Shown here one piece after another: positions 78 through 7,580 of a stretch of DNA of 7,618 nucleotides. Every line of letters starts with the position of its first letter. The stretch's first letter is position 1. A model generated the notes under the pieces. The model was not told where the DNA came from. It saw only the letters and a program-made list of their open reading frames with translations, and did not search any database. A program made the position numbers and the translations under genes. The DNA is from Candidatus Dadabacteria bacterium (GTDB lineage Bacteria > Desulfobacterota_D > UBA1144 > Nemesobacterales > JADFKM01), in NCBI GenBank assembly GCA_022564935.1, contig JADFKM010000075.1:1-7618 (forward strand), in the 5' to 3' direction.

Positions 78-1229
78 TCAGCTCATCTCGCCTTCCCCCG
101 AGAGAATGGCGTTTAGTATCTCTTTTTGTATCCCCTCGATCTTGTTCTTCACACCCTCGAGCTCATCTGTAGCCTTGCCCCTTTCCTTGCACTCTTCCAG
201 TATGGAATCGAAGTTAGAGAGTATCATCTTAAGCTTTGTCTGCGCTTCAATGTTGGCTTTCACCAGCATGTCGTCGTTATCCCATGGGCGCTTGGCGTAG
301 GATTCGATCTCCTTTGCCTGTATCAGGAGCTCGCGGGAGCGGTCGCGGTATCCGTGGAGAACCTGATGGACTACCGCCTGGATTTCAGCCCTTTCTCCGG
401 GCTCCCGCCACAGGAGGTTCTGGAACATCGCCATGTCTTCTTCCAAAACCCCTTCCCTGCCGTTCAATAGGGCTAGGGACTGGAGAACCGAAACGGATTG
501 CTTATAACGCCTGTCTGAGACTACGACGCCCTTTTTCCGCAATTCCCCTCTTATGCGCGCTATAAGCTTGAGTATCTGCGGGGAAACCTCAACGCCCGGG
601 AGGGCCCCGCGGCAGACTCTGAGTTCTTGGAGCGTTATTGTCGTTCTCTCGCTGCCTGCGGACTGTGAGCCGAGGAGCTTTAAAAATCTGAAATCCTCTT
701 TTATATAGTCAACGACATACCGCAGCAGGAACCTGTCGTACAGGGCTTCAAGCTCGTCTTCTTCCGAGGGTATCTCATTGCTTGCGCCTACAAGGGTGAT
801 AAGGGGAACATCAATATGGCCCGCGCCGTTGAAAAATATCCTCTCGTTCATGATTGTAAGAAGCGTGTTCAATATTGAAGAGCTCGACTTGAACACCTCA
901 TCTAAAAATGCAACATGGGCCTCGGGGAGCTTTGAGGTGGTCACTCTGCGGTACTCATCGTTTTCGAGCCCCTTGAGGCTCACCGCCCCGAAGATCTCTT
1001 CGGGGGTGGTGAATTTGGTGAGCAGCCATTGGAAATACCCGGCTCCGTTTATTCTGCCGCACACCTCATGGGCGAGCATTGACTTTGCAGTGCCCGGCGG
1101 CCCTATAAGCAGCATATGGGCGCCGGAGAGAAGGGCGCACATGGCCCCGTCCACGACTTCATCCCGCTCATAAAAACCGGCGCGCAGCTCTTGCCTTATC
1201 TGCCTTAATTTCTCTAATTCTCTTTCCAT
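78..1229 (-). CDS. RavA/MoxR-family AAA+ ATPase
   Basis: A 383-residue cytoplasmic AAA+ ATPase of the MoxR group, closest in style to the RavA subfamily, whose members act as ATP-driven chaperones or remodelers in assembly of protein complexes. Visible motifs are Walker A GPPGTAKS (43-50), a RavA-like segment FTTPEEIFG (73-81), Walker B VAFLDE (106-111), sensor 1 GASNE (148-152), an arginine-finger region LYDRFLLR (163-170) and sensor 2 SDRRY (238-242). E. coli RavA is about 500 residues and has an inserted LARA domain; this protein is shorter and ends in a charged, helical, probably coiled-coil tail (about 320-378). The ATG start is preceded by TAAGGG seven bases upstream and lies inside the last codons of gspK (16-nt overlap), which suggests translational coupling. 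The ATPase assignment is firm. A role in secretion is only an inference from position, and the substrate is unknown. Confidence 0.92.
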   Translation of the reverse strand: MERELEKLRQIRQELRAGFYERDEVVDGAMCALLSGAHMLLIGPPGTAKSMLAHEVCGRINGAGYFQWLLTKFTTPEEIFGAVSLKGLENDEYRRVTTSKLPEAHVAFLDEVFKSSSSILNTLLTIMNERIFFNGAGHIDVPLITLVGASNEIPSEEDELEALYDRFLLRYVVDYIKEDFRFLKLLGSQSAGSERTTITLQELRVCRGALPGVEVSPQILKLIARIRGELRKKGVVVSDRRYKQSVSVLQSLALLNGREGVLEEDMAMFQNLLWREPGERAEIQAVVHQVLHGYRDRSRELLIQAKEIESYAKRPWDNDDMLVKANIEAQTKLKMILSNFDSILEECKERGKATDELEGVKNKIEGIQKEILNAILSGEGEMS

Positions 1230-2317
1230 GAAATAACCCTTACTGCGGGAGACTGACCGGGACGCGATCTCCTCACAACGGCTCTTACGACCTTTACGGT
1301 GGGATTGTCCTGGCCTAGGACACCGACAGCCCGGACACCGAACACATCGCTGGCTCCCGTAGAATGCACGACTCCCGCGAGCCCCGAGTTTATGTTTAAG
1401 GTGGCGTCAACCTCCCTGACGATCTCGATGACCCTCCTGCGGGTTACGACGGATTCGTTCTGCCTTTCTTCCATTATTCTGCCGGCAATTGTATCGGCCA
1501 CATCGTCCCTGAGCTCATTCGTTTCTGCGCTCTGTCTTCTTTGAACGGCCGAGACCATAGCCGACTTCAAGACCGCCATTATAACCACTTTTGGAGCCGT
1601 GGAAAAGCTTACCTTCTTGCCGGGGGGATAGACGGTCACAAAATCCTTTATCTTGTTATAAAACTCATCGTCCATGCCCCGCACCATCCTTATCTCCTCG
1701 ACGCTGTCCAAGGTGCCGTTCTTTATAGTGTACGGGGTGTCCAGCCCGCGGTAATACCCCTCCCTGGCTCCACCGGGGTCCTGGTCGTTCTCGACCCCGA
1801 AGAGGGGCCTGTCGAGCCAGTTAATAAGGCTTGAGATAAAATCATCTGCATTGTCGCCGTCCACTTCCAGAAACCTGAGGAGCTCGGTGATCTGAGTGCG
1901 CACCTGCTCGTCAACCCTGTTTGTCCTTCGGCTTACAAGGGCGTTGAGGTTGATTTTCGACCTTTCATCGACGATCTCGATCGCAACCGAGCCGTCCCCG
2001 ATAGGGTAGCCGGGAACCACGATCGACCACATGCCCTCTCCCCCGTCTTCATCTTTGCCCCGGAACATCGCAAGCTCCGAGAACTCCTCTAAGTTCTGAG
2101 CGAGCATTGTGCCGGCCACGAAGTTCACCCCCGATTTTGCCAGATACCTCGCCTTGATGACGTCCCCGGTATTGCGCGCAATCTCGCCGTCCACCTGGGT
2201 GTAATACATCATATCCACCACAAGTGTTGTCAAGATAGCCACGATAATCAAAACCGTAATAAGGACAAATCCCCTTTCGTCTCTGGATTTTTCTCTCATT
2301 TGCTCAGTCATCTTCAC
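1214..2317 (-). CDS. gspK: Type II secretion minor pseudopilin GspK
   Basis: The largest minor pseudopilin, which with GspI and GspJ forms the tip complex that starts the periplasmic pseudopilus. About 367 residues. A basic leader ends at RDERG (16), followed by the hydrophobic helix FVLITVLIIVAILTTLVV. Position +5 of the mature protein is Thr where other pseudopilins have Glu, the expected GspK signature. Family blocks follow: DERSKINLNAL (about 117-127), a helical region with INWLDRPLFGVENDQDP (165-181), YYRGLDTPY (188-196), LDSVEEIRMVRGM (203-215) and FSTAP (238-242). The start is chosen as GTG at 2317 because AGGGGG lies seven bases upstream; ATG at 2311, two codons later, is the alternative. 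A longer frame to 2461 would run into the end of gspJ and place 50 unsuitable residues before the leader. It begins 23 nt after gspJ, and its end overlaps the ATPase gene. Confidence 0.95.
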   Translation of the reverse strand: MKMTEQMREKSRDERGFVLITVLIIVAILTTLVVDMMYYTQVDGEIARNTGDVIKARYLAKSGVNFVAGTMLAQNLEEFSELAMFRGKDEDGGEGMWSIVVPGYPIGDGSVAIEIVDERSKINLNALVSRRTNRVDEQVRTQITELLRFLEVDGDNADDFISSLINWLDRPLFGVENDQDPGGAREGYYRGLDTPYTIKNGTLDSVEEIRMVRGMDDEFYNKIKDFVTVYPPGKKVSFSTAPKVVIMAVLKSAMVSAVQRRQSAETNELRDDVADTIAGRIMEERQNESVVTRRRVIEIVREVDATLNINSGLAGVVHSTGASDVFGVRAVGVLGQDNPTVKVVRAVVRRSRPGQSPAVRVISWKEN

Positions 2318-2324
2318 AAGGTTT

Positions 2325-2330
2325 CCCCCT
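2325..2330 (-). promoter_or_regulatory. Ribosome binding site that decides the gspK start
   Basis: AGGGGG on the minus strand sits seven bases before the GTG at 2317 and thirteen before the ATG at 2311. It lies in the short gspJ-gspK spacer, so it favours the GTG start and argues against the longer upstream frame. Confidence 0.5.
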
Positions 2331-2340
2331 GCCGGTGGGC

Positions 2341-2982
2341 TCAGTTCGCGGCCGGTATGATAACAAACAAAGAAAATTCGACCTCTTCTCCACCCGGGCC
2401 CATCAAAACGACTCCGATCTCTACGCCTCTGGGAAGAGTCCCTCTGAGCGTGGAATCCCATTCATCAACCATATGCCCTTCGGCGTCTTCTGAAAAAAAT
2501 GAGGCGCTGAAGGCCACCACCCTTTCAGATATTGCGTATTCGATGCCAGTGTTTTCTATCCCGATACTGGGGTTTTCGCTTCTCATAAGGTAGAACAGAC
2601 CGTTCTCAGGGTTAGGGGCGAGAAAGTAGAATAGCTCGGCCTGATCCGAGGTTCTGGAGCCGGGGCCGGGGTGGTGGGTAAACGCAGTGAAGCGAAGCGA
2701 GCTCTTCCCCTCTCCGCCCCCGGAAATAAAGAAAGGGAAATCCGAGGCTTCAGTTGTAGGGTAGACCACGCCCCTGGGGAAGGCCATGGACAGATCCTCG
2801 GTCATCTTCGAGAGAATGAACCTCGCCTCATTGTACATCTCAAGCTGGTTTTCAGTAAACTCCTTTGACCTTATCACCTGAAAGAACGACGAGAAGGCCA
2901 CTGTTAATACCACCGCGCTTATGGCGATGGCGAGCATCAGCTCCATAAGGGTAAAGCCCCTACTGGAGGTCGGCTGCAACAT
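2341..2982 (-). CDS. gspJ: Type II secretion minor pseudopilin GspJ
   Basis: A minor pseudopilin of the tip complex with GspI and GspK. The 213-residue precursor has a nine-residue leader ending SSRG, then FTLMELM with Glu at +5 and a membrane helix to about residue 28 (LAIAISAVVLTVAFSSFF). The rest is a soluble periplasmic domain of mixed strands, with the usual GspJ segment LEMYNEARFILSKMTEDLSMAF shortly after the helix, and the total length is normal for the family. ATG at 2982 is preferred over a TTG at 2994, because it gives a typical short leader and has GAG seven bases upstream. It overlaps the end of gspI by 23 nt, consistent with coupled translation. Its order between gspI and gspK is the standard T2SS order and supports the call. 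Confidence 0.93.
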   Translation of the reverse strand: MLQPTSSRGFTLMELMLAIAISAVVLTVAFSSFFQVIRSKEFTENQLEMYNEARFILSKMTEDLSMAFPRGVVYPTTEASDFPFFISGGGEGKSSLRFTAFTHHPGPGSRTSDQAELFYFLAPNPENGLFYLMRSENPSIGIENTGIEYAISERVVAFSASFFSEDAEGHMVDEWDSTLRGTLPRGVEIGVVLMGPGGEEVEFSLFVIIPAAN

Positions 2983-3367
2983 AGATAATCTCAAAGTCTT
3001 CGGTTCCCTCGTCCCATGTTATTACCAAACGCACGAGCATCAGCTCCGAGCCCAGCCTGGGCATGGCGGCGGGCTCGATTACCAGAGTCCACGCGAACCC
3101 CGGAGCCTCTTCGAACTCGCCCTGGTCTTCGAAGGGCTCGGGCTGGCCCGTTAGCTCGATCTCGGCCAGCTTCTTCTGCGCCAGGGAGCCGGCGAGTATG
3201 AGGTTCTTAGAGAGCGCGCTCTGAAGCAGGCTGCTGTTGACGGCGCCGAGAAGCACTGCGGCGGAGGAGCCGAGTATCACGACGGCAACCAAAACCTCAA
3301 GCAGGGAAAAACCCCTCTGCGACCTGTCCCGTGCCCTTGCCGATTTATCGGTTCCTGTTAATTCCAT
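2960..3367 (-). CDS. gspI: Type II secretion minor pseudopilin GspI
   Basis: A small minor pseudopilin that links GspJ and GspK in the pseudopilus tip. The precursor is 135 residues with a 19-residue, strongly basic leader ending SQRG, then FSLLEVL with Glu at +5 (residue 24) and a hydrophobic helix VAVVILGSSAAVLLGAV. The segment that follows, with LAGSLAQKKLAEIEL, matches the usual GspI pattern of a helix carrying A..KLAE-type residues, and the C-terminal domain is short, as expected. ATG at 3367 is the first usable start in the frame, as a stop codon lies three codons upstream. No convincing Shine-Dalgarno precedes it; GGGAA lies too far upstream. It is separated from gspH by 120 nt and overlaps gspJ. 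Confidence 0.93.
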   Translation of the reverse strand: MELTGTDKSARARDRSQRGFSLLEVLVAVVILGSSAAVLLGAVNSSLLQSALSKNLILAGSLAQKKLAEIELTGQPEPFEDQGEFEEAPGFAWTLVIEPAAMPRLGSELMLVRLVITWDEGTEDFEIIYVAADLQ

Positions 3368-3487: not shown

Positions 3488-4000
3488 CTATTTAATTAGC
3501 AGCAACTCAACGAACTCGTCATACACTCTCACCCCGCCCGTGTATGGCTTGGTCTCTAGGGTGTAAATATCTCCGCCTTCGGTCTCCAGATATATCACCG
3601 CCGGCTCCACAAAGCCGGTAGGCAAAAACAGGATGAACTCGCTGCGCTCCTCTAGGGTAGAGCCGTATGTCCTCTCGGTGATTACGTCCTTGAAGAACAC
3701 CCCCGAGGGCAGCTTTCTCCTGTCCATGACCGGGTCGTTTACTACCAGAAATTCATTGCCTCTAAGCTCTTCAACCCAGTACTCCCCCTCATCGAGGTCG
3801 AACATGAGCCTGAATATCTTTCTCTTGAACGCCGCCTCGTTGTACAGGTACCTCACGGTAGTGATTATCCTTCTCGAGGCGCTCTTCACTTTGTAGTCGG
3901 TAGCGTCCTGCAGCCTCGGGACTGCGATGAAAACGAACATCCCGATTATAAACAGAACGACCGATATCTCAATGAGAGTAAAGCCGTTGTTTCTGCTCAT
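3488..4000 (-). CDS. gspH: Type II secretion minor pseudopilin GspH
   Basis: A 170-residue prepilin-like protein. It begins with a six-residue leader MSRNNG followed by FTLIEISVVLFIIGMFVFIAVP, giving Glu at +5 (residue 11) and the helix-breaking proline found in pseudopilins. The soluble domain (about 40-170) is strand-rich and fits the GspH/FimT fold, including the early helical stretch RRIITTVRYLYNEAAFKRK. GspH connects the tip complex to the GspG shaft. The start codon follows the gspG stop by only three bases, so the two are almost certainly co-translated. No strong Shine-Dalgarno is visible (AGTGAAGC just before the ATG). The position directly after gspG separates GspH from other short-leader pseudopilins; the sequence alone would also fit a type IV pilin-like FimT protein. 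Confidence 0.88.
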   Translation of the reverse strand: MSRNNGFTLIEISVVLFIIGMFVFIAVPRLQDATDYKVKSASRRIITTVRYLYNEAAFKRKIFRLMFDLDEGEYWVEELRGNEFLVVNDPVMDRRKLPSGVFFKDVITERTYGSTLEERSEFILFLPTGFVEPAVIYLETEGGDIYTLETKPYTGGVRVYDEFVELLLIK

Positions 4001-4003
4001 GCT

Positions 4004-4474
4004 TCACTGCGGGTCTCTGTTTGAGATGTCGTCGTCGCTTGGCTGACCGTCCTCCCCCAGGGAGATGATCTCGTAGCGGCCATACTGTGACTGATCGGGA
4101 CCGATATACACGAATTCCCCCCCCCAGGCATCTAGCGGAACCGCATCCCCTTCCAGATAACCCTCGGGTGGATACTTATTGAGATTGACGGCTCTCCCTA
4201 CGGCCGGGAGCTCCACGAGGGCCTGAAGACCCTGCTGGGTTTCAGGATAAAAGCCGTTGTGCAGCTTAAACAGCTTGAGGGCATTCTCCAAACTCTTTAT
4301 TTGAACCTTTGTCGTTGTTCTCTTAGCCTCTCCCAGCCTTTCAATAACTTTTGGAGCCACAAGGAAAGCGATGCTTGATATGATGACAAGAACGACCATA
4401 ATCTCAATGAGAGTAATTCCGGCCTCGGAGCGCCTGGCGGAGTTAACTGCATATAAATGTCGATTTAGAACCAT
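4004..4474 (-). CDS. gspG: Type II secretion major pseudopilin GspG
   Basis: The main subunit of the periplasmic pseudopilus. The precursor is 156 residues. A 19-residue leader ends SEAG, and the mature protein starts ITLIEIMVVLVIISSIAF, with Glu at +5 (residue 24) and the conserved Pro at 41. The family segment LENALKLFKLHNGFYPETQQGLQAL (62-86) is unmistakable, as are GYLEGDAVPLDAWGG (105-119) and the C-terminal calcium-site region SLGEDGQPSDDDIS (138-151), rich in Asp. Two departures stand out: Ile at +1, where Phe or Met is usual, and Arg in ISNRD where many GspG proteins have Trp. A nine-G run lies in the codons for W117-E120. It follows gspF by 16 nt, with AGGAGGT eight bases before the ATG, fitting the high output needed for the most abundant subunit. 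Confidence 0.96.
   Translation of the reverse strand: MVLNRHLYAVNSARRSEAGITLIEIMVVLVIISSIAFLVAPKVIERLGEAKRTTTKVQIKSLENALKLFKLHNGFYPETQQGLQALVELPAVGRAVNLNKYPPEGYLEGDAVPLDAWGGEFVYIGPDQSQYGRYEIISLGEDGQPSDDDISNRDPQ
4117..4125 (-). repeat. Nine-base G mononucleotide tract inside gspG
   Basis: Nine consecutive C on the plus strand, nine G in the coding strand, covering the codons TGG GGG GGG GAA of GspG residues 117-120. The frame is intact at this length. Gain or loss of one base would remove the last 35-40 residues, including the calcium-site region. Confidence 0.9.
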
Positions 4475-4490: not shown

Positions 4491-5696
4491 TTATCTAATT
4501 GTTGAAGTTAAATCAAAAATCGGCAGCAATATCGCAAACACAATGAACCCTATTACCACGCCGAGCACCAAAATCATAACGGGCTCAAGCAGCGACATAA
4601 GCCCAGACATCGTGGTCTCGACCTGAAGGTCGTATGTGTCTGCCACCCTGAGCAGCATATCATCAAGCTCCCCGGTCTGCTCGCCCACGCTGACCATGCG
4701 CGTAACGAGCGGGGGGAACACGCCGCTTTCTCTCAGAGGGCCGGAGAAGCTCGTCCCCTCGCGAAGGTTCTCCCTCACGTTAACGAGCGCATCCCTGTAC
4801 ACGACGTTGCCCACAACGGATTCGGACACCTCCAAAGCCTCGAGAAGCGGGATGCCGCTCTGCAGCAGGGTGCCGAGGGTGCGCGTGAAGCGGGAAATGA
4901 TTATCATGCGGGTAATCTTGCCGAAAGTGGGGATTTTTAGTATAAGGCGGTCGAAGAACTTCCTTCCCCGGGGAGTCTTGTTAAACCTGTAGATGGAAAA
5001 TATTAAAGCCGCCGCACATAATAACATCAGCAGCAAATGGTCGCGGAACAGACTGCTCACCTCGATTAGCACAACGGTTATAGTAGGGAGCGCCTTTTTG
5101 CTCTGTTCGAATATCTTGGTGATGCTGGGGACGACGTAGGTCATCATAAACACGAGAACCCCGCTTCCCACTATCATCATGAAAAGGGGGTAAACAAGAG
5201 CGCTCCTTATTCTGGAGGTGAGCGCGTCCTGTCTTTCGAGGAAATCCGCAAGCCTCTCGAGCACAATCCCAAGGGTGCCGCTGACCTCGCCCGCCCTTAC
5301 GATGTTGATGTACAGGTCTGAAAACACCTCAGGGTGCTCGCCGAGGGCCTTCGCAAGGGAGCTGCCCTCGCCGATGCTATCCTTAACCCCGGCCATAACC
5401 TCAGTGAGATAGGCGTCCTCGGTCTGCTCGGAAAGCGCCTGGAGGGAGGCCTCGAGCGGCAGACCGGCAGAAATCATTGTTGCGAACTGACGGGTGGAAA
5501 TGGAAAGCTCCGTGGCGCTTACGGCGCGAAGGAACCTGAAGCCGCGGCGCTTGCCCCTCTTTACCTCTTCGATCGAAGACAGATAGATGCCGCTTCTCTT
5601 AAGCTCCTCGACTACGGAGCGGGCGGAGTCCGCATCCACTACCCCCTCTATCGAGCTCCCGCTTTCGTTAATGGCTTTGTACTTATAAACCGGCAT
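4491..5696 (-). CDS. gspF: Type II secretion inner-membrane platform protein GspF
   Basis: A polytopic inner-membrane protein that couples the GspE ATPase to the growing pseudopilus. It has 401 residues, the standard length. The N-terminal part (about 1-50, starting MPVYKYKAINESG) is the small cytoplasmic domain. Two homologous T2SSF helical domains follow, about 66-190 and 268-392, each with the repeated motifs ISAGLPLEASL / LQSGIPLLEALE and RAGEVSGTLG / SVGEQTGELDDML. Membrane helices are seen at about 168-190, 219-236 and 371-394. The ATG start is the only sensible one, because the frame is closed ten codons upstream, yet no Shine-Dalgarno precedes it (CCCTTATTTGCTCAT). The gene begins 204 nt after gspE. 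PilC of type IV pili has the same fold, but the adjacent gspG-K genes settle the T2SS assignment. Confidence 0.96.
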   Translation of the reverse strand: MPVYKYKAINESGSSIEGVVDADSARSVVEELKRSGIYLSSIEEVKRGKRRGFRFLRAVSATELSISTRQFATMISAGLPLEASLQALSEQTEDAYLTEVMAGVKDSIGEGSSLAKALGEHPEVFSDLYINIVRAGEVSGTLGIVLERLADFLERQDALTSRIRSALVYPLFMMIVGSGVLVFMMTYVVPSITKIFEQSKKALPTITVVLIEVSSLFRDHLLLMLLCAAALIFSIYRFNKTPRGRKFFDRLILKIPTFGKITRMIIISRFTRTLGTLLQSGIPLLEALEVSESVVGNVVYRDALVNVRENLREGTSFSGPLRESGVFPPLVTRMVSVGEQTGELDDMLLRVADTYDLQVETTMSGLMSLLEPVMILVLGVVIGFIVFAILLPIFDLTSTIR

Positions 5697-5900: not shown

Positions 5901-7580
5901 TTAATCGTTCTCTTCCCCGGTGACCCTGAACAGCTCTTCTATAGAGGTCTCACCCTTGATCACCTTTTGCTTGCCGTCAACCCTGAGGGTTTGCATGCCG
6001 TTTTTAATCGCCTCTCTCTTAATTGTGGTAGAGTCGGCCGTGCTCAGTATCAAATTCCTGACAACGTCGTCTACGCTCATTATCTCGAATATGCCCGACC
6101 TCCCGCTGTAGCCGGTATCCACGCATTCCTTGCAGCCCACGGCCTTGTAGGTCTTTATGTCCTCGCCGCGAAGCTCGCTATCGCCGTTAAACTTGCTAAG
6201 TTCGTCTTCGCGGGGGGTGTAGAGCTGTTTGCAGTGAGGACAGAGCTGCCGCACGAGTCTCTGTGCTATCACGGCGATGAGCGAGGAGGCCACGAGGAAC
6301 GGCTCTATGCCCATGTCAACCAGCCTCGTTATGGCACTCGAGGCATCGTTTGTGTGCAGTGTGGCGAAGACAAGGTGCCCCGTGAGGGAGGCGTGAATGG
6401 CGATGTCGGCGGTCTCCCTGTCCCTTATTTCTCCCACCAGTATCACATCGGGGTCCTGGCGGAGAATGGAGCGGAGGCCGTTTGCAAAGGTCAGGTTCAC
6501 CTTGGGGTTTACCTGAATCTGATTAATACCCTGAATCTGATACTCCACGGGGTCTTCGATGGTAATGATCTTTTTATCGGGGGAGTTTATTTTCTGAAGC
6601 GCCGCATACAGGGTCGTCGTCTTACCGCTTCCTGTGGGCCCGGTCACAAGAATTATGCCGTAGGGACGCTTAATCAGGGAGTCCATAATGTCCTTCTTAT
6701 ATGACTCAAAGCCCAGGTCCTTAAGCGTCAGCATGACGTTGGAGCGGTCGAGAAGCCTCATCACGACGCTCTCTCCCCAGGTGGTAGGAACCGTGGAAAT
6801 CCGCACATCCACGTCCCTTCCTGCAACCTTTACCCTTATCCTGCCGTCCTGGGGCTTTCTCTTCTCGGCGATATCCAGCTCGGCCATTATCTTGACCCTG
6901 GAGATCACGGCACTCTGGAGTTTCTTCGGGATGCTGATCACCTCGTGGAGCATACCGTCCTTCCTGAAGCGCACCATGACCTCTTTTTCAAAGCACTCTA
7001 TGTGAATGTCGCTTGCCTTCTCCTTGACCGCCTGGAAGAGCAGGGAGTTGACGACCCTAATGATAGGGGCTTCGTCGTCGGCGTCGAGGATGTCCTCGGT
7101 CTCAGGTATGTCGGACTCGGTGATAACGCCTTCGTGCTCTTCTATGTCGTCGGCAATGCCCGCTGCGCGCTCATAGACCTTGTTTATACAGTCGATCACG
7201 GTGGCTCCTGAGGCCAGGTACGGCTCAATTTCGGCTCCGAACAGGCTCTTGACCTCGTCCATCACGCACAGGTCTAGGGGTGGGCCGAAAGCGATGTGCA
7301 CGGCTTGGTTATCCTTCTTTATGGGTATTAATTTGTACTTCTTTGCATAGCTTATCGGGAGGGTTTGTATTAGCTCTCTGTCGATCTCATCCTCACTCAG
7401 GGCGCCGATCAGGGGCACTCCGTAAAACTCCGAGAGGACCTCGAGCAGCTCTTCCGGGTCAAGGAGGTTCGAGCGGATTAGGACATCCTCAAACCTCTCC
7501 TTATCGTCTGATACTATTTCGTTAATCTTACCCCGGGCTTCGGGGTTCTTCTGGGCTATTATCTCCTCTAGAGTCTTCAA
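5901..7580 (-). CDS. gspE: Type II secretion traffic ATPase GspE
   Basis: The hexameric cytoplasmic ATPase that powers pseudopilus assembly. 559 residues. The N-terminal T2SSE_N-type domain (about 1-140) contains DVLIRSNLLDPEELLEVLSE and is followed by an acidic linker (143-170). The catalytic part shows Walker A GPTGSGKT (314-321), Asp box IEDPVEYQ (341-348), Walker B with catalytic Glu in DPDVILVGEIRD (376-387, E384) and His box TGHLVFATLHTNDA (400-413). A zinc-binding tetracysteine follows: C447/C450 and C483/C486. The start is TTG at 7580; an in-frame stop lies two codons upstream and no ATG or GTG lies nearby downstream. AGGGG ten bases upstream is the likely ribosome binding site. PilB of type IV pili is the main alternative, but the gspF-K neighbours make GspE far more likely. 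Confidence 0.95.
   Translation of the reverse strand: MKTLEEIIAQKNPEARGKINEIVSDDKERFEDVLIRSNLLDPEELLEVLSEFYGVPLIGALSEDEIDRELIQTLPISYAKKYKLIPIKKDNQAVHIAFGPPLDLCVMDEVKSLFGAEIEPYLASGATVIDCINKVYERAAGIADDIEEHEGVITESDIPETEDILDADDEAPIIRVVNSLLFQAVKEKASDIHIECFEKEVMVRFRKDGMLHEVISIPKKLQSAVISRVKIMAELDIAEKRKPQDGRIRVKVAGRDVDVRISTVPTTWGESVVMRLLDRSNVMLTLKDLGFESYKKDIMDSLIKRPYGIILVTGPTGSGKTTTLYAALQKINSPDKKIITIEDPVEYQIQGINQIQVNPKVNLTFANGLRSILRQDPDVILVGEIRDRETADIAIHASLTGHLVFATLHTNDASSAITRLVDMGIEPFLVASSLIAVIAQRLVRQLCPHCKQLYTPREDELSKFNGDSELRGEDIKTYKAVGCKECVDTGYSGRSGIFEIMSVDDVVRNLILSTADSTTIKREAIKNGMQTLRVDGKQKVIKGETSIEELFRVTGEEND

Follow-up and report, generated by a model that had tools for sequence, protein, structure and literature searches.

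A RavA-type AAA+ ATPase encoded at the end of the T2SS operon in Dadabacteria

In a genome of the uncultured phylum Dadabacteria, the gsp genes of a T2SS are directly followed by the gene of a MoxR-family ATPase, at the site where, as a first-pass annotation remarked, gspL and gspM normally stand. The arrangement raises the question of whether the ATPase is a chance neighbour, a substitute for GspL and GspM, a factor acting on the T2SS, or a protein with another task whose gene was captured by the operon. The window, that is, the whole stretch of DNA analysed, is an entire contig (G000:C17) of 7618 bp from a MAG that is 88.6% complete. All of its genes lie on the (−) strand, in the order gspE, F, G, H, I, J, K and the ATPase gene:

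78..1229, (−), RavA-subfamily MoxR AAA+ ATPase of 383 aa without the LARA insert; terminal gene of the gsp operon
1214..1229, (−), 16 nt shared by the end of gspK and the start of the ATPase gene; same length in 20 relatives
1214..2461, (−), gspK (minor pseudopilin), given as its longest frame; the start is likely GTG at 2317 or ATG at 2311, and 2461 is also plausible
2341..2994, (−), gspJ, minor pseudopilin (NCBIfam models)
2960..3367, (−), gspI, minor pseudopilin (NCBIfam models)
3488..4000, (−), gspH, minor pseudopilin (NCBIfam models)
4004..4474, (−), gspG, major pseudopilin (Pfam and NCBIfam models)
4491..5696, (−), gspF, platform protein (GspF model above its cut-off)
5901..7580, (−), gspE, secretion ATPase (GspE model above its cut-off)

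The ATPase and its junction with gspK

According to sequence and fold comparisons, the ATPase is a complete RavA-type member of the MoxR AAA+ family. It carries a Walker A motif (GPPGTAKS at residue 43), a Walker B motif (FLDEVFK at 108), sensor 1 (GASNE at 148), an arginine finger (YDRF at 164) and sensor 2 (SDRRYK at 238), and residues D110, E111, N151, R166 and R240 were invariant across 38 homologue sequences. The protein matched the NCBIfam RavA model NF010054 with an E-value of 3.6e-65; the score of 221 bits falls short of the equivalog cut-off of 681, and the ATPase is therefore not an equivalog of E. coli RavA. The sole other NCBIfam match was RuvB (0.0046). Pfam matches were to bpMoxR, AAA_5 and AAA_lid_8, and a sequence search of the PDB returned E. 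coli RavA (E 7e-55), with the next chain at 7e-4. The predicted structure, an AlphaFold model with a pLDDT of 90, superimposed on RavA (3nbx) with a Z-score of 35.8 over residues 1-369, as compared with 25.5 for the next non-RavA chain. Its C-terminal helices aligned to those of RavA, the LARA insert being skipped. LARA is a feature of E. coli RavA that we judged not to define the RavA subfamily. Together, the motifs and the model, Pfam, PDB and fold matches bear out the RavA-type assignment made in the first-pass annotation.

The ATG of the ATPase gene, at 1229, lies inside gspK, as had been proposed: gspK ends at 1214, and the two genes share 16 nt, read in different frames. The identity of gspK is supported by Pfam model T2SSK_1st (PF21687), which it matched above the cut-off, and by NF037980 (E 4e-37), for which its 128 bits are slightly below the 130-bit cut-off; the T2SSK model PF03934 had no match in this genome. 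In the loci of relatives, gspC and gspD lie upstream of gspE. The GspD secretin encoded at L060:16885-19596 has an N-terminal LysM domain (E 2e-11), which might serve as a peptidoglycan anchor in place of GspA/GspB. Since the contig stops 77 nt beyond the ATPase stop codon, the downstream context of the gene was taken from relatives.

Conservation of the junction was evaluated in 57 Dadabacteria genomes, nearly all MAGs, sorted by program into kinship groups that we call families f1-f8. An orthologue of the ATPase was present in 21 of the 57, belonging to four families (f1-f4), and the relatives' proteins were 58-69% identical to that of the window. In all 20 other carriers, to the extent of their contigs, the gene lies directly 3′ of gspK inside the gsp operon, with an overlap of 16 nt in each. 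The surroundings differ. Downstream of the ATPase gene, f2 genomes share a common gene set that mostly starts on the opposite strand, and f4 and f3 carry other genes. The genes upstream of gspC, named by sequence reading, are HAD-, UvrA-, DnaJ- and penicillin-binding-protein-like in two f2 genomes and GalT-like in the single f4 genome read. The gspK-ATPase linkage has thus outlived rearrangement on both flanks, and the ATPase gene is the last of the operon. The linkage is real and old, and the ATPase is likely co-expressed with the T2SS genes. An apparent in-frame TAG in MoxR matches of family f8 was rejected in L027, where it is the end of a gene with the alignment running past it.

The first-pass annotation had allowed that two operons might be adjacent by chance, or in this genome only, and had proposed a comparison of homologous loci; with the ATPase adjoining gspK in 21/21 carriers, that caveat is refuted. 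The short contig, ending 77 nt past the gene, might have suggested that the junction arose by chance or through faulty assembly of this MAG; this has practically no probability, as the same junction recurs in 20 further genomes drawn from many independent assemblies.

gspL, gspM and gspN at a second locus

As noted in the first-pass annotation, gspL and gspM are absent next to gspK in the window, and they were to be sought elsewhere in the genome. They were found behind dnaN, together with gspN, on another contig of this genome (G000:C64), at L165:6313-9356:

L165:7860-9356, (−), gspL, identified mainly by position
L165:7267-7845, (−), gspM, identified mainly by position
L165:6313-7266, (−), gspN, similar to the GspN of relatives (E 5e-44)

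GspL and GspM of this genome had weak or no model scores. In relatives, the same locus, with the order dnaN, usually a ComF-like gene, gspL, gspM and gspN, was located at L166:7004-9999 and L167:7018-10034, as well as in L168, L169, L171 and L172. The L166 proteins matched models for GspL (TIGR01709, E 6e-14), GspM (NF040576, E 3.6e-8) and GspN (TIGR04411, E 8e-35, above the cut-off), and in L172 GspL_C was above its cut-off. In 39 genomes of the phylum, TIGR01709 matched mostly a frame of ~500 aa located away from gspC-K, and a GspL-like match to this model was present in 37 of 38 gsp-positive genomes. A gene on contig C27 that matched PF05134 (T2SSL) was rejected as GspL; it encodes PilM within the pilM-N-O locus for a type IV pilus.

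These data bear on the possibility that the ATPase replaces GspL and GspM and occupies their place. In support of it, gspK is not followed by gspL or gspM in Dadabacteria, whereas in Binatota gspL lies directly 3′ of gspK. However, the gsp-positive genomes with a GspL-like match include ATPase-less ones, and G005 and G017, both without the ATPase, carry the gspL-M-N locus. Moreover, GspL is of the actin-fold/PilN type, not AAA+. Because gspL-M-N is encoded at a second locus, replacement is refuted, and we give it hardly any credence. T2SS gene sets can accordingly be split, with gspC-K and RavA at one locus and gspLMN at another, and this affects any annotation that infers missing GspL or GspM from the main operon alone.

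A putative ViaA-like partner and homologues in other phyla

In E. coli, RavA is encoded with ViaA, a VWA protein. The genome under study encodes a ViaA-like protein on a third contig:

G000:C37:52848-54380, ViaA-like VWA gene (ViaA the best NCBIfam match)

The best NCBIfam match of the VWA protein, here and beside the ATPase in other phyla, was ViaA (E 5e-20 to 7e-21); the Dadabacteria protein (E 5e-20) scored 72 bits, far below the equivalog cut-off of 500. The protein has a C-terminal VWA domain with a MIDAS-like motif, DCSSS. Its gene was found in 20 of the 57 genomes, unlinked from the ATPase gene, and in 17 of the 21 that bear the ATPase. In families f1 and f4, the VWA gene is followed in the same direction by a conserved alanine-racemase-like gene (L141-L144, L146-L148, L150).

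Among gsp-positive genomes in which the contig extends past the end of gspK, 17 had both the ATPase and the VWA gene, four had the ATPase only, none had the VWA gene only and 15 had neither. Fisher's test for this co-occurrence gave P = 7e-7, a value that overstates the evidence given the kinship of the ATPase-less genomes. According to a FastTree phylogeny of GspE/F/G/H/K from sampled genomes, these ATPase-less genomes (f6 and f7) form one clade with a support of 1.0; co-loss of the two genes may therefore be a single event, and the P-value is not to be taken at face value. The four genomes with the ATPase only include G024 (96% complete) and G021 (92% complete), in which the absence of the VWA gene is not easily explained by incompleteness alone.

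A scan of other phyla with two conserved ATPase peptides, which covers close relatives of the ATPase, identified the nearest outside homologues in three groups, with identities of 50-60% for Binatota, 44% for a Desulfobacterales MAG and about 40% for Bacillota. None of the loci examined in these three groups had gsp genes beside the ATPase gene; most homologues had a VWA gene directly downstream. In Binataceae, recO is found 3′ of the ATPase gene instead. This VWA protein is encoded in 19/19 Binatota-type genomes tested, including 14 in which the ATPase gene precedes recO. A phylogeny of the ATPase placed the Dadabacteria sequences as sister to Binatota, with VWA-linked outgroups, the support for the Dadabacteria node being only 0.52. 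From this topology, linkage to a VWA gene is likely the ancestral state. The first-pass annotation had held that a T2SS role would be refuted if the ATPase were strongly linked to some unrelated downstream system in relatives; such a link was thus encountered in other phyla and not inside Dadabacteria.

Two further observations concern these loci. The Binataceae-type loci L093-L113, with the ATPase gene before recO and the VWA gene elsewhere, represent an independent-looking second split of the pair. L087, on a contig labelled as a Klebsiella pneumoniae MAG, is a Binatota-like RavA and VWA locus (55% identity) that clusters with L097; the record is therefore probably mislabelled or contaminated.

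Possible roles and comparison with known systems

The VWA-adjacent homologues in other phyla and the co-occurrence of ATPase and VWA genes make it most likely that the ATPase represents RavA in a RavA-ViaA pair whose two genes have been split, and we consider it probable that its gene was captured by the T2SS operon. The reading is built on the RavA subfamily and fold of the protein, the operon position with its overlap, the unlinked ViaA-like gene and the co-occurrence of the two. Against it stand the possible single co-loss and the four ATPase-bearing genomes without a VWA gene. In the ancestor of the ATPase-bearing families, the ATPase gene would have parted from the ViaA-like gene and become the last cistron of gspC-D-E-F-G-H-I-J-K. 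From that position, joint transcription with gspK and translation coupled through the 16-nt overlap are expected. The ATPase most likely still works with the ViaA-like protein from the unlinked locus, presumably by physical pairing. The missing LARA insert is no obstacle, since binding to ViaA persists in E. coli RavA that lacks LARA, and both proteins localise and act at the inner membrane (PMC9489729). The VWA adaptor would recruit a RavA hexamer to the inner membrane, where the hexamer could remodel membrane-associated complexes.

What those complexes might be is a separate matter. The physiological clients of RavA-ViaA are debated, the candidates being Nuo, Frd and membrane lipids. One explanation, to which we assign somewhat less than an even chance, is that ravA landed behind gspK and stays there since the overlap makes separation costly, while the protein performs a RavA-ViaA task unrelated to secretion, such as the maturation of respiratory complexes. 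Consistent with this, the Binataceae orthologue lies before recO, unlinked to the VWA gene, which indicates that a change of neighbour need not reflect an evident functional tie. In addition, T2SSs without RavA exist (f6, f7), and work on E. coli connects RavA-ViaA with Nuo and Frd (PMC3893208, PMC10585395). The long retention of one arrangement over four families, with no split in 21/21 genomes, argues against it.

The alternative is a dedicated assembly or remodelling factor of the Dadabacteria T2SS, formed by the ATPase alone or together with the ViaA-like protein and acting from the cytoplasm on GspE, GspF, GspL or GspC, or in the handling of membrane pseudopilins. This we regard as possible, though less likely than not. 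The first-pass annotation had proposed such a remodeler, and the conserved linkage speaks for it: the operon position and the 16-nt overlap are constant over four families despite changed flanks, and the ATPase occurs in none of the 19 gspF-negative genomes of the phylum. A precedent also exists in Thaumarchaeota, where a vWA and MoxR/GvpN pair shows strong linkage to the loci for type IV pili (PMC4858521). The proposal is weakened by the 15 gsp-positive genomes of f6 and f7 that lack the ATPase; in four of these the gspK end was read. Both families retain gsp genes up to and including gspK, and f6 has gspLMN as well, but neither carries the ATPase or the VWA gene. Further, the ancestral partner VWA gene lies outside the gsp operon, and in Binatota, where gspK is present, genes of this ATPase family lie apart from gsp. 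As one clade has gspC-K without the ATPase, a client role of the T2SS is unproven, and we hold it only as a tentative prospect. Nevertheless, every Dadabacteria genome with RavA or ViaA also had some T2SS gene, and this restriction fits a T2SS-dependent role equally well.

Recruitment of a RavA-ViaA type pair as a T2SS accessory that remodels the inner-membrane platform or the pseudopilus in Dadabacteria is, on these data, possible but not the likelier outcome. If true, it would provide the first case of a T2SS-dedicated MoxR ATPase. The presence of ravA in the operon and of an unlinked ViaA-like partner makes it a testable hypothesis that the T2SS platform is a client. In the open-access literature searched, no T2SS operon was described as containing a MoxR ATPase, and the archaeal type IV pilus was the only precedent for MoxR with secretion or pilus systems.

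Compared with E. coli RavA (PDB 3nbx, 6q7l), the Dadabacteria ATPase shares the motifs and 32-33% identity, and the AAA+ core, lid and C-terminal helices align. E. coli RavA differs in having 498 aa and the LARA insert, through which it forms a cage with LdcI, as opposed to 383 aa without LARA. Its gene lies beside viaA, in an operon, whereas the Dadabacteria gene lies in the gsp operon and the VWA gene, similar as its product is to ViaA (E 5e-20), is unlinked. GspA/ExeA is likewise an AAA-type ATPase tied to a T2SS, in whose assembly it functions. It belongs to another AAA family, however, and by description is membrane-bound, has a peptidoglycan-binding domain and acts on the secretin. Finally, archaeal type IV pilus loci that encode a vWA protein (arCOG02900) and a MoxR/GvpN ATPase (arCOG00441) resemble the Dadabacteria operon in that a MoxR ATPase is genetically tied to a machine of the type IV filament class (PMC4858521); there, the ATPase is of the GvpN type, the filaments are archaeal pili and the VWA gene resides at the same locus.
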